DNA of 64,000 bases, from the NCBI GenBank assembly GCA_016786745.1, contig JAEUVS010000164.1, forward strand, positions 1-64,000. The letters run 5' to 3'. This stretch comes from Chitinophagaceae bacterium (GTDB lineage Bacteria > Bacteroidota > Bacteroidia > Chitinophagales > Chitinophagaceae). Every line of letters starts with the position of its first letter. Position 1 is the first letter of the stretch. The notes below the pieces were generated by a model. The model searched no databases. It was not told where the DNA came from and was given only the letters and a program-made list of their open reading frames with translations. Below are positions 15,318 through 64,000 of this stretch, piece after piece. The position numbers were made by a program, and so were the translations under genes.

Positions 15318-15749
15318 TTATTCATTGTCGCTTGTGCCACCTGGCTGGCTTATGGGAGCTTCCCAGGCTGAAGGTTCACTTACAGGAGCAGAAGCTGGCG
15401 CGCTTTCAGCGGGTCTTGCTGCGGGAGCTCTTTTAGCTGCTTTTTTCCTGGCTGCTTTTTTAGGAGCTGCTTTCTTCTTCGCTGCTTTTTTTGGAGCAGC
15501 TTTCCTGGCAGCTTTTTTCGCAGATTTTTTGGCAGCTTTTTTAGCTGCTTTTTTCTTCGGTGCTGCTCTTCTCTTCGCGGCTTTTTTAGCCCCTCCCTTA
15601 CGTGCACCTCTTTTGGCTGTTTTTTTCGCAGCTTTTTTCGCTGCTTTCTTTTTACCGCCTTTTTTTGCAGCGGATTTGCGGGCTCCACCAGTTCTGCGAG
15701 ATGATTTTTTAGCGGCTTTTTTAGCAGACTTTTTCTTTGCTTTGGCCAT
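15318..15749 (-). CDS. Histone-H1-like Lys/Ala-rich DNA-binding protein
   Basis: 143 residues composed almost entirely of K, A, R, P, S and G for the first about 110, in irregular AAKK/KKAAKK/APKK repeats like the C-terminal tail of eukaryotic H1 and bacterial H1-like proteins (Hc1/AlgP/KAP types). The final about 30 residues (from AESAPASAPV) lack lysine and are mildly acidic. Such proteins bind DNA non-specifically and compact it. It is encoded opposite to, and inside, the nusG-rplK interval, with its own upstream region of about 200 bases shared divergently with rplK. The long Ala/Leu/Phe-rich reading frame on the other strand is a composition artefact. Confidence 0.8.
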   Translation of the reverse strand: MAKAKKKSAKKAAKKSSRRTGGARKSAAKKGGKKKAAKKAAKKTAKRGARKGGAKKAAKRRAAPKKKAAKKAAKKSAKKAARKAAPKKAAKKKAAPKKAARKKAAKRAPAARPAESAPASAPVSEPSAWEAPISQPGGTSDNE

Positions 15750-15861
15750 AACTAGGATGTGTTTTTGTTATTGGAAAATTTATTGTGTTAGTAAAACATA
15801 AACTTAAGTAAAAGCTACGTAGAATAATTTAAAAAATAAAAATCTTATAAAATAATTTCAC

Positions 15862-15869
15862 TATCTTTG
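15862..15869 (+). promoter_or_regulatory. Bacteroidota -7 element for rplKAJL
   Basis: TATCTTTG, matching TAnnTTTG, 86 bases before rplK. The upstream stretch is AT-rich with no exact TTTG. Confidence 0.55.
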
Positions 15870-15874
15870 CGACC

Positions 15875-15932
15875 CCCAAATAAGAAGTAATATTCTGTTT
15901 GAGTTTGGGAGTTCCGGATTAAAGGCCGGAAC
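15875..15932 (+). promoter_or_regulatory. Structured leader of the rplKAJL operon
   Basis: Two possible stems: CCCAAA (15875-15880) with TTTGGG (15904-15909), and the perfect 7-bp GTTCCGG (15911-15917) / CCGGAAC (15926-15932). In Escherichia coli, L1 represses its operon by binding the L11 leader; this leader is a candidate for the same, but the L1 site itself was not identified. Confidence 0.4.
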
Positions 15933-15954
15933 GCTAACACCAAAAACAAAAATT

Positions 15955-16401
15955 ATGGCAAAAGAAATCAGCGGCTTTGTTAAGCTGCAGGTGAAAGGAG
16001 GCCAGGCAAATCCTGCGCCCCCGGTTGGTCCGGCTCTAGGTTCGAAGGGTGTGAACATAATGGAATTCTGCAAACAGTTCAACGCCCGCACTCAGGATAA
16101 GCCCGGCAAAGTACTCCCGGTAGTCATCACCGTTTATTCAGACAAGTCTTTCGATTTTATCATTAAAACAGCTCCCGCTGCCGTTCAGCTGCTCGAAGCC
16201 GCGAAACTGCAGGGTGGTTCCAAAGAACCTAACCGCAGTAAAGTAGGTAAGGTTAACTGGCAACAGGTTGAAGCGATCGCTAAAGACAAAATGAGCGATC
16301 TGAACTGCTTCACCATAGAAAGCGCCATGAAAATGGTCGCCGGAACCGCACGTAGCATGGGCATCACCGTTGAAGGCGACGCTCCGTGGGACAAAAACTA
16401 A
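15955..16401 (+). CDS. rplK: 50S ribosomal protein L11
   Basis: 148 residues. The N-terminal domain shows [34 protein letters not shown], given here only as the start [16 protein letters not shown]. The C-terminal rRNA-binding domain has [23 protein letters not shown] and [13 protein letters not shown]11 forms the GTPase-associated stalk base with L10 and L12 and binds 23S rRNA. It is the first gene of rplKAJL and follows a structured leader. The spacing to rplA is 27 bases. Confidence 0.98.
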
Positions 16402-16428
16402 AATTGTTAAGGATAAAATTGAACGACA

Positions 16429-61508: not shown

Positions 61509-61541
61509 ACGATTTCACGATTGACGATTGACGATTCACGA
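61509..61541. repeat. Variant of the GTGARGC repeat (GATTGAC units)
   Basis: ACGATTTCACGATTGACGATTGACGATTCACGA; direct ACGATTS units of about 7-9 bases, reminiscent of the other copies with CACGATT flanks. It covers the upstream TTG start option of the MnmD gene. Confidence 0.45.
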
Positions 61542-61551
61542 ACTTCGTTCC

Positions 61552-62214
61552 GTGCAAAACAAACTAATCGTCACCGCCGACGGCTCCCATACGGTCATCA
61601 ATAAAGATCTAAACGTTTCCTATCACTCCATGCATGGAGCGATCCAGGAATCGAAACACATATTTATCGATGCAGGTCTCAATTATAAACAAAAGAAAAA
61701 AATAAATATTCTCGAGGTCGGCTTCGGAACAGGACTAAATGCACTACTCACATTAATAGAATCAAAAAATGATCGTTCTGAGATTATATATGAGGCTATT
61801 GAACTACATCCTTTGGACGACCTATGCATATCTTCGCTCAATTATTTGTCCCTTTTGAATGCCGGGCAGCTGCGCGACAAATTTCTCAGCATGCATTTAT
61901 CTCCTGCGTCGGCAGCGACTAAAATCTCAGACCATTTTCATTTGAAAAAAATCTACGGCGACATCCGTTCTATTCAACTTTCTTCCAGTTACGATCTCAT
62001 CTACTTCGATCCCTTCGACCCTGTTGCACAACCGGAGTTATGGTCGGTTGATATCTTTAAAAAAATATATGATTCGACTAATGACGGTGGTGTTCTTGTA
62101 ACTTATTCGAGTAAAGGTGCTGTACGTCGCGCAATGGAAGCTGCGGGATTTAAAATCGAAAAATTACCTGGTCCCCGGGGAAAAAGAGAGATCGTGAGAG
62201 CAACGAAAAATTGA
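61552..62214 (+). CDS. mnmD: tRNA 5-(aminomethyl)-2-thiouridine methyltransferase MnmD
   Basis: 220 residues from the GTG at 61552 (VQNKLIVTADGSHTVINKDL); a longer form from the TTG at 61528 would begin inside a repeat and is less likely. The SAM-binding motif is ILEVGFGTGLNALLTLIES, and the catalytic region DLIYFDPFDPVAQPELWS fits MnmD. The FAD-dependent MnmC1 domain is absent, so it is the stand-alone methyltransferase. It makes mnm5(s2)U34 in the anticodon of certain tRNAs. Confidence 0.85.
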   Translation: MQNKLIVTADGSHTVINKDLNVSYHSMHGAIQESKHIFIDAGLNYKQKKKINILEVGFGTGLNALLTLIESKNDRSEIIYEAIELHPLDDLCISSLNYLSLLNAGQLRDKFLSMHLSPASAATKISDHFHLKKIYGDIRSIQLSSSYDLIYFDPFDPVAQPELWSVDIFKKIYDSTNDGGVLVTYSSKGAVRRAMEAAGFKIEKLPGPRGKREIVRATKN

Positions 62215-62369: not shown

Positions 62370-62669
62370 ATGCATTGGTACAAAACTAGTTGGATGCTGC
62401 TATTCCGGTGTAAGTTCAATGAGGGTGAACTTGCGTCCCTGAAAAATTATTTACCTGCGAAGGAGTATTGTTTGGTTGGTGGTCCCGGTGAGGATGAGTA
62501 CTATGGGGTGATGGGAGAGGGCTTGCACGACAAACTTATGGACATTTTATCGGGAGAAACTTTAGAAATGCTTGAGTATATAGATGATTCGGAAATCCGG
62601 GAGGTTTTAAAAAGTAATAGGCCTACCGAGAAAATAGGTAATCATCTTTTGTTAGAAAGTTATCAATAG
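62370..62669 (+). CDS. Hypothetical protein
   Basis: 99 residues, no recognised family. It is acidic, with no signal peptide or membrane segment. An aromatic start (MHWYKTSWMLLF), a Gly-rich turn in GGPGEDEYYGVMGEGL, and a helical middle (LHDKLMDILSGETLEML) are visible. It follows an AT-rich 155-base gap, and precedes the tRNA-Asp gene. Codon use is AT-leaning relative to neighbours. It could be a recent acquisition or a fast-evolving small protein; its reality as a gene is likely but not proven. Confidence 0.55.
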   Translation: MHWYKTSWMLLFRCKFNEGELASLKNYLPAKEYCLVGGPGEDEYYGVMGEGLHDKLMDILSGETLEMLEYIDDSEIREVLKSNRPTEKIGNHLLLESYQ

Positions 62670-62777: not shown

Positions 62778-62851
62778 GGATCGGTAGTTCAGTTGGTTAG
62801 AATGCCGCCCTGTCACGGCGGAGGTCGCGGGTTCGAGTCCCGTCCGGTCCG
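62778..62851 (+). tRNA. tRNA-Asp (GTC)
   Basis: 74 nt; acceptor GGATCGG/CCGGTCC with discriminator G, anticodon arm CCGCC-CTGTCAC-GGCGG with anticodon GTC, T arm GCGGG-TTCGAGT-CCCGT. A strong hairpin follows within 20 bases. It is the last core gene before an AT-rich stretch. Confidence 0.95.
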
Positions 62852-62865
62852 CTTTCTTCAAGATA

Positions 62866-62890
62866 AAGACCCGCTCTGGTAGCGGGTCTT
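62866..62890 (+). terminator. Terminator after tRNA-Asp
   Basis: AAGACCCGCT-ctggt-AGCGGGTCTT, a perfect 10-bp stem, followed by GTCGTTTCC. The T-tract is weak, but its position fits a tRNA terminator. Confidence 0.7.
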
Positions 62891-63077
62891 GTCGTTTCCG
62901 GTCTATTTTTCGGTCTATCTACGACCATGTTTATGGCTAAGTCTTTAAAATGTATATTTAGTTCAAGGCTCTATTTCTACCATTTGGTAACTAAGAAAGT
63001 TTAAAGTCGACTAGATGACTTCAAATTGAAGCTCCAAGGAGTGAATAAAACATCATAAAGTGTTAATATTAATTAAA

Positions 63078-63096
63078 TATATTTGCGTATAACGCA
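63078..63096 (+). promoter_or_regulatory. Promoter -7 element and palindromic operator for the terminal XRE gene
   Basis: TATATTTG (63078-63085) overlaps TGCGT-ATA-ACGCA (63084-63096), a perfect 5-bp inverted repeat on a 3-nt spacer. The start codon is 7 bases later. The layout suits autorepression by the XRE protein. Confidence 0.5.
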
Positions 63097-63103
63097 GATT
63101 TTT

Positions 63104-63319
63104 ATGCCTAAAAATGAGATAAATCGGATAAGAGTTGTTTTAGCAGAAAAAGGTATAACTAATAAGTGGTTAGCAGAAAAACTTAATAAAAACCAAACAA
63201 CAATATCCAGATGGTGCAACAATGACATGCAGCCATCGATAGAGACTCTTCTGGAAATTGCAAATGTACTTACTGTCGACATAAAGGATTTACTGTGGTC
63301 CTCAAAATCTGAAAAATGA
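63104..63319 (+). CDS. Small XRE-family HTH regulator
   Basis: 71 residues from the ATG at 63104 (MPKNEINRIRVVLAEKGI); a TTG at 63083 would run through the operator. It is nearly all HTH_3 domain: KWLAEKLNKNQTTISRWCNN, DMQPSIETLLEIANVL, DIKDLLWSS. It shares the WLAEKL...WC.N.MQP.IETL pattern with the protein at 42004. The stop overlaps the next start (ATGA), so it is coupled to the downstream ORF and likely controls it. Confidence 0.82.
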   Translation: MPKNEINRIRVVLAEKGITNKWLAEKLNKNQTTISRWCNNDMQPSIETLLEIANVLTVDIKDLLWSSKSEK

Positions 63320-64000
63320 TAGAAGGAAACGACAATATTTTTGAGTCAATTGGTAATCTATTAGACAATTTAATGGAGGGGGAAAAATATGAAACCCTGC
63401 CACCTAGGTCTACTAAGGATTTAGATGCACCATTTGTTTCCAACGAGGAACTTGAAGCACTAGATCAAGATATTTATGGAGAAAAAAAAACAAATGAAAA
63501 AGGTGAAGCTAATTCCAGATCAATCTCTACCCCAATACTAGAACAGCGTAAGAGAATCAAGATTGAACCTCCTTCACCAGAAAAAGTAGCCGGAATCAAT
63601 ATTGTAGGGATAAGTGGTGATAATAATAGAATTATTACACCCTCTTTTCATATAATTTTAGCGAGAGCTGCTATAGTCGATTTCAGATATACAAAAGGAT
63701 TCGATAAGCCATATTTTTATAAAAAACAAAAGGATATATCTTCAGTCTTAATTATTGACAATAATATTTTTGAGGATTCTCATAAGATATATACCAATAA
63801 CACTCTTGTTGAAAAAGGGAAAAGGGTGCCTGTGATGGATGCGATCAAAAATTTTGATGGCAAGCCTTTTCGCTTCAGGTATAACCATGAGTCAATTAAA
63901 TCATCACCCGCTTCGCATTCTTTGGGGCTAGGAGTAAAGCTTCAACATACATTAGAGCTTAGCACTTTGGAAGAGATTGATTTTGAGAATAAGGAAACAG
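63316..64000 (+). CDS. Unidentified accessory protein, 3' end outside the window
   Basis: A reading frame from the ATG at 63316, overlapping the XRE stop by four bases, stays open for 228 codons to the window edge. The N-terminal about 90 residues are acidic and low in hydrophobic content (LPPRSTKDLDAPFVSNEELE). From about residue 92 a folded domain begins: VAGINIVGISGDNNRIITPSF then HIILARAAIVDFRYTKGF, then VLIIDNNIFEDS. The strand/helix pattern loosely recalls the start of NurA-type nuclease domains, but the expected Asp of the DGS motif is not clearly in place. It has no signal peptide. AT-rich codon use differs from the core genes. Function cannot be assigned. Confidence 0.6.
   Translation, partial: MIEGNDNIFESIGNLLDNLMEGEKYETLPPRSTKDLDAPFVSNEELEALDQDIYGEKKTNEKGEANSRSISTPILEQRKRIKIEPPSPEKVAGINIVGISGDNNRIITPSFHIILARAAIVDFRYTKGFDKPYFYKKQKDISSVLIIDNNIFEDSHKIYTNNTLVEKGKRVPVMDAIKNFDGKPFRFRYNHESIKSSPASHSLGLGVKLQHTLELSTLEEIDFENKET

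Follow-up and report, generated by a model that had tools for sequence, protein, structure and literature searches.

An operon lying between tRNA-Asp and accA in a 4.75-Mb Bacteroidota genome is, in our judgement, probably a horizontally acquired defence module, autoregulated by an XRE-type protein and directed against invading elements. This reading is based on its gene content and operon layout, on the conservation of a NurA-HerA-methyltransferase gene trio in seven loci, on the foreign composition of the DNA, and on gene neighborhoods of a defence type. The window that we analyzed comprises positions 1-64,000 of a 69,290-bp contig (C78), and the locus continues past its end.

Organization of the locus

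The features of the locus are listed in Table 1. The first four genes (XRE, NurA, HerA, methyltransferase) are translationally coupled or touching: XRE and NurA overlap by ATGA, with the TGA lying over the ATG at 63316, NurA and HerA share TAATG, and HerA and the methyltransferase overlap by another ATGA. A terminator lies between the deaminase-HATPase gene and accA.

Table 1. Positions of features at and around the operon (contig numbering, which is also that of the window up to 64000).
Feature	Position	Strand	Basis or remark
tRNA-Asp (GTC)	62778..62852	+	ARAGORN; proximal insert boundary
Hairpin terminator 3' of tRNA-Asp	62862..62895	+	RNA fold of 62853-62910: -18.8 kcal/mol, z -3.7
Putative promoter/operator box upstream of XRE start codon	63076..63096	+	TAnnTTTG-like presumed -7 element overlapping palindrome TGCGTATAACGCA (63084-63096)
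XRE/Cro-type regulator, 71 aa from ATG	63104..63319	+	Pfam HTH_26 E=4.6e-12, HTH_3 E=9e-12
NurA-family protein, 437 aa	63316..64629 (window ends at 64000)	+	homologues with Pfam NurA matches; fold match to NurA structures
HerA-type ATPase, 603 aa	64629-66440, past window	+	DUF87 above cut-off
HTH-methyltransferase, 298 aa	66437-67333, past window	+	predicted fold and HTH segment
Deaminase-HATPase, 423 aa	67482-68753, past window	+	RibD/dCMP-like deaminase fused to HATPase_c_4
Degenerate tRNA-Asp 3' end (candidate)	68928-68943, past window		13/16 match
accA start	69215, past window		contig ends inside gene

Much of this arrangement had been anticipated from the window alone. The original prediction placed a hairpin after tRNA-Asp, in agreement with both the ARAGORN call and the RNA fold, and described a 71-residue XRE protein overlapping a long ORF by ATGA, as is found here. 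That ORF was called truncated, but it is cut by the window edge only and is complete on the contig; the HerA/FtsK-like ATPase predicted to follow it is indeed the next gene.

A conserved gene trio in Bacteroidota and Ignavibacteria

The NurA, HerA and methyltransferase genes occur in the same order in seven independent loci from Bacteroidota and Ignavibacteria: the window locus itself (L003), a Sphingobacteriales MAG of the same family as the window (L037), an Ignavibacteria MAG (L045), Moheibacter (L052), Bacteroidota MAGs (L054 and L055), and a member of the window's order (L072). Identities to the window proteins are 35-54% for NurA, 54-68% for HerA, and 51-66% for the methyltransferase, in a sample that is small and biased because these loci were found partly with patterns of this family. 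The HerA of L037 is 84% identical to that of Moheibacter and 68% identical to that of the window, which argues for patchy descent. At L054, the operon is accompanied by the PADLOC candidate PDC-M38AB, a tyrosine-recombinase remnant and two HTH_17 genes; at L052, an IS1 transposase lies beside it.

An XRE gene precedes the trio in five of the seven loci, the copies directly upstream in L037, L052, L054, and L055 being 63-81% identical to that of the window (tblastn), and three of the five have the palindromic operator in common. The operator that had been proposed for the XRE gene, TGCGTATAACGCA, matches once in the window, where 0.06 occurrences are expected with up to one mismatch. It overlaps a TAnnTTTG-like element which, from general knowledge of Bacteroidota promoters, we take to be a -7 element. 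The box TTTGYGTWWWACGC lies just 5' of the XRE start in L003, L037, and L055, is absent from every other unrelated locus fetched, and has diverged versions (read by eye) in L052 and L054. We infer that the box at the XRE start serves as a promoter/operator for autorepression, with TTTGCGTATAACGC as the candidate site at which XRE would repress.

The NurA-like protein and its altered motif I

On its own, the 437-aa protein has no match in Pfam, NCBIfam, or PADLOC. A three-row alignment, searched against the genomes of GTDB species, found its relatives, and its identity as a NurA-family member rests on these orthologues: Pfam NurA (PF09376) is above the curated cut-off in those of L054 (E 8.7e-9), L055 (3.2e-10) and L072 (3.9e-9), to which the window protein is 35-39% identical across nearly its whole length. 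A Foldseek search with an AlphaFold2 model of the complete ORF (mean pLDDT 63.5, higher in the core, with an unreliable stretch of 77 residues at the N terminus) returned NurA structures as all of its best seven matches (7f6d, 1zup, 9x1n, 9x1m, 2ygk, 9x1l, and 3tai), the best E being 1.3e-7 (7f6d) and the TM-scores a modest 0.27-0.41. The model core, which ranks NurA structures first, is thus predicted to adopt the RNase H-like NurA fold. PDB sequence searches with NurA alignments gave nothing relevant. The weak NurA resemblance guessed at in the original prediction has in this way been substantiated by two routes, orthologues and structure, and the protein is a NurA homologue, a statement about ancestry rather than about nuclease activity.

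That prediction did not foresee the state of the catalytic motif I. It reads GIDGS in L054, L055, and L072, and the Asp is absent from the other four of the seven NurA proteins, including that of the window (GISGD in the window, GISGT in L037, GIVGA in L052, and GIAGN in L045). Misalignment is an unlikely cause, because the alignment is ungapped at motif I. An SKR motif nearby, which we infer to be the equivalent of the published catalytic Lys, is altered to S-S/T-K in the four Asp-less proteins, and a tree of the three concatenated trio proteins parts Asp-keeping from Asp-less groups with support of 1.0. Published mutants include Sulfolobus NurA D58A, in which nuclease activity on linear DNA is gone and circular-DNA nicking is kept (PMC4641729), and Thermococcus D49A (PMC12977600) and Deinococcus D53A (PMC9960219), both of which abolish activity. 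With the motif-I Asp replaced, NurA-type exonuclease activity has probably been lost in this lineage; the proteins themselves are still conserved, as is their coupling to HerA.

The HerA-type ATPase

The ATPase matches DUF87 above the Pfam cut-off. In PADLOC, it matches mad8 (1.6e-20, 71.9 bits, residues 200-547) and HerA (3.8e-16), and it scores 50.8 bits with the NCBIfam anti-phage HerA model, whose cut-off is 800. Walker A (GESGSGKT), Walker B (YVFFDEAHQ), and the Gln sensor (STQ) are invariant in the HerA alignment, and among solved structures the DUF87/HerA ATPases 8yho, 8xau, and 8j4u are nearest in sequence. The protein may be a DNA translocase of the hexameric kind.

An exchangeable fourth gene

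The gene 3' of the trio differs among loci. In five it encodes Schlafen SLFN_AlbA_2, joined in each of the four complete copies by HATPase_c_4 (the L054 copy leaves the contig end); in L072 the slot holds a putAbiC-like gene, and in the window locus a RibD/dCMP-like deaminase fused to HATPase_c_4. A DUF5131 gene, phage Gp37/Gp68-like, lies between the methyltransferase and AlbA_2 genes in two of the five (L037 13718-14500 and L052 13051-13809), and its L052 copy matches the PADLOC candidates PDC-M41B/M30B. Five further genomes of the phylum contain full-length relatives of the window deaminase-HATPase, with 43-52% identity. Three of the four neighborhoods read for these relatives are restriction-modification (R-M) loci: one of type I with hsdM, hsdS, SIR2, and hsdR (L066), one of type I with an AAA_13 protein (L067), and one of type IIG (L065). 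Proteins of the Schlafen-HATPase-wHTH type are known from the literature as BREX-linked backup effectors (PMC12839542). Given these R-M contexts and BREX-linked proteins, the fourth gene belongs with defence accessories of a type already known, its catalytic domain having been swapped in the window locus.

The neighborhoods (R-M loci, PDC-M38, and the integrase remnant), as analyzed here, support a role in defence. Such a role had been suggested originally from the layout at the window edge, and it gains in part from gene contents and contexts of a defence kind, namely R-M loci, PDC-M38AB, and putAbiC.

Three smaller observations concern this part of the operon. In L065, L066, and L067 the deaminase-HATPase_c_4 family sits inside type I or type IIG R-M loci and may be an R-M accessory effector not yet catalogued. 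The methyltransferase and deaminase genes of the window locus are separated by a 148-bp gap (L003 5334-5481) that contains a short coding-looking remnant, LYVEILLPKKAEYAIRKSR, the gap in other loci being of a few bases; this may mark an effector replacement. In L052, a further Schlafen AlbA_2 gene, carrying an ORF6C domain as a fusion, follows directly downstream of the operon (15345-16427).

The methyltransferase and a proposed mechanism

The 298-aa methyltransferase is predicted to combine an N-terminal Myb/SANT-like segment with a class I SAM-methyltransferase fold. Its motif IV reads DLDTCGS and not (N/D/S)PP(Y/F), the DNA amino-methylase motif, and it has no DNA-methylase match in Pfam. 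Five of six members match RNA cap guanine-N2 methyltransferases (PF09445) below the threshold, and there is a match to archaeal Trm1 with 2.7 A rmsd over 133 columns; both hint at an enzyme closer to guanine-N2 RNA methylases, perhaps Trm1-like. Only generic methyltransferases were matched when the model was compared with viral structures, and an IMG/VR scan with the methyltransferase alignment found no relative.

We propose that the HerA-type hexameric ATPase and its NurA-type partner would form a DNA-translocating complex that engages invading DNA, presumably that of phages or plasmids. The HTH-methyltransferase would provide recognition or self-marking of nucleic acid, and the interchangeable fourth gene would act as an effector that either does the damage or provides a backup for it. 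If NurA exonuclease activity is lost in this lineage, the effector gene or another site would have to cut or kill.

One form that such defence could take is R-M-like: the methyltransferase would mark host DNA at a sequence that its Myb-like HTH recognizes, and DNA lacking the mark would be destroyed by HerA-NurA. We regard this sub-case as possible but doubtful. It accords with a methyltransferase fold joined to an N-terminal HTH and with strict linkage to HerA-NurA (seven of seven loci), but self-marking of this type is uncertain because motif IV lacks the DNA amino-methylase form and the best leads are instead guanine-N2 RNA methylases; the NurA nuclease motif, moreover, is gone in four loci and kept in three. 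More tentative still is our suggestion that, in the clade that includes this genome, the HerA motor works with a catalytically dead NurA serving as scaffold or sensor. Destruction would then fall to the exchangeable HATPase-linked effector (a Schlafen RNase elsewhere, a deaminase here), under the control of an HTH-methyltransferase with motifs that suggest guanine-N2 or RNA-type substrates and not classical DNA methylation. Such a defence architecture would be previously undescribed.

In archaea, NurA-HerA takes part in end resection (PMC12977600, PMC4641729), and the fold matches are to those proteins, so that the genes could instead form a DNA repair operon in which NurA-HerA resects double-strand breaks, with the remaining genes as accessories. 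This we consider unlikely. The distribution is very patchy and the composition foreign; apparent XRE autoregulation, swapping of partners, and R-M and Abi contexts all fit a repair operon poorly, and the Asp that resection requires is missing from four of the seven loci.

Relationship to known systems

The operon resembles DUF4297-HerA and SIR2-HerA (Nezha) in placing a HerA-type ATPase beside a dedicated nuclease or effector. The partner in those systems is DUF4297 or SIR2, whereas here it is NurA-like, and the operon adds an HTH-methyltransferase, XRE, and a swappable effector. No operon gene matches DUF4297 or SIR2, and with a different partner we rejected membership of either system. With the archaeal and Deinococcus NurA-HerA resection complex it has in common the adjacent NurA and HerA genes and the NurA fold (7f6d, 9x1m, and 2ygk), but it differs by its sporadic, mobile spread, its linked methyltransferase and effector, and the Asp loss in four of seven loci.

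MADS (the methylation-associated defence system) likewise contains a methyltransferase, and mad8 is the best PADLOC match of our HerA. Only one of eight mad components is recognized, however: of the mad1-mad8 gene set HerA alone gives a convincing resemblance (to mad8), the methyltransferase does not match mad2, and there is no kinase or other mad gene, so membership of MADS was rejected. Plain R-M membership was rejected as well. The slot gene in five loci, SLFN_AlbA_2, accompanied by HATPase_c_4 wherever the copy is complete, is like the BREX Schlafen-HATPase-wHTH proteins (PMC12839542); the window slot differs in having a RibD/dCMP-like deaminase in place of the Schlafen domain, an architecture found also inside R-M loci.

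Neither the NurA nor the methyltransferase component has a model in PADLOC v2, which gave no system-level match that fits the operon, and a search of open-access journal papers returned no description of a NurA-HerA-methyltransferase defence operon. These comparisons suggest that the operon is of the HerA-nuclease defence type, with a NurA-like partner, in a new combination. Bacterial immune machines built from a HerA ATPase and a dedicated nuclease form a growing class, and what NurA-HerA does biologically in bacteria has been called uncertain (PMC9960219); the operon would set NurA-HerA in a defence context and adds a conserved methyltransferase to it. Orthologous operons with intact and with eroded NurA active sites offer a natural comparison which, if the defence reading is true, would test whether motor or nuclease does the immune work. 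The deaminase-HATPase effector, for its part, appears to shuttle between R-M loci and the operon.

Composition and insertion site

Past tRNA-Asp, composition and codon use turn AT-rich, as the original prediction had it: GC content is 36.9% in the insert versus 45.8% in window positions 1-62777, and the four long ORFs of the insert have GC z values of -3.5 to -7.0 and codon-score z values of -3.2 to -4.3. NurA is present in one of 196 other genomes of the family, being absent from the two same-genus genomes sampled (G082 and G160), and HerA in one of 338 other genomes of the order. The predicted island edge therefore stands as regards foreign composition and lineage restriction, but the complete insert has no integrase between tRNA-Asp and accA, and the only candidate for a far repeat of the tRNA end, GAACCGTCGGGTCCGC at contig 68928, matches at 13 of 16 positions. 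This candidate is followed by a hairpin (-17.1 kcal/mol) with a T-run; when that interval was simulated 2000 times, 13 matches were reached once, the tRNA as a whole gave no significant local alignment, and the insert contains no single long perfect repeat of the tRNA-Asp end. In the same-genus genome G082, the tRNA-Asp 3' end is repeated perfectly over 27 bp at a distance of 14 kb downstream, which is consistent with use of tRNA-Asp as an integration site in this group. The insert is likely an old, immobilized island with an unproven att repeat.

Comparison with relatives, by which the island had been said to be testable, also favors insertion. tRNA-Asp and accA are normally divergent neighbors: this is so in the seven relatives with both genes on the fetched piece, directly in six and with one gene between them in the seventh (G082). 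Here they are 6.4 kb apart and the tRNA is directed toward accA, an arrangement suggesting that insertion came with an inversion or other rearrangement.

The tRNA-adjacent position and the integrase remnant in L054 might also be expected of a module that stabilizes or transfers an integrative element, with HerA/FtsK as a segregation or conjugation motor, since plasmids too use ATPases of this group for segregation and transfer (PMC10853773). We hold this to be improbable, as the complete insert has no relaxase, mating-pair, or partition gene, and as no related HerA was found beyond the Walker B region in 72,556 plasmids or in an IMG/VR scan with the HerA alignment, plasmid and phage searches giving at best weak matches around that region. 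That these are ordinary lineage-specific core genes, AT-rich through expression level and not transfer, is very improbable: accA is immediately next and a perfect att repeat is missing, but composition is 3.5-7 SD off and the reading is contradicted by the differences among relatives at this site, both in the absence of NurA from the same-genus genomes and in the neighboring of tRNA-Asp and accA.

The foreign stretch that carries the probable defence operon may start to the left of the tRNA. A TTG-start MnmC-like methyltransferase gene upstream of tRNA-Asp (window 61528-62214) has GC and codon z values of -2.9 each, and a search of three same-genus genomes did not find it; between it and tRNA-Asp lies a 99-aa ORF of no Pfam family (62370-62669). 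In G082, the 14-kb segment from tRNA-Asp to its 27-bp copy (L038 2592-16527), with no obvious integrase, holds hybrid two-component, SusC/SusD-like, and glycosidase-like genes, as judged by eye.
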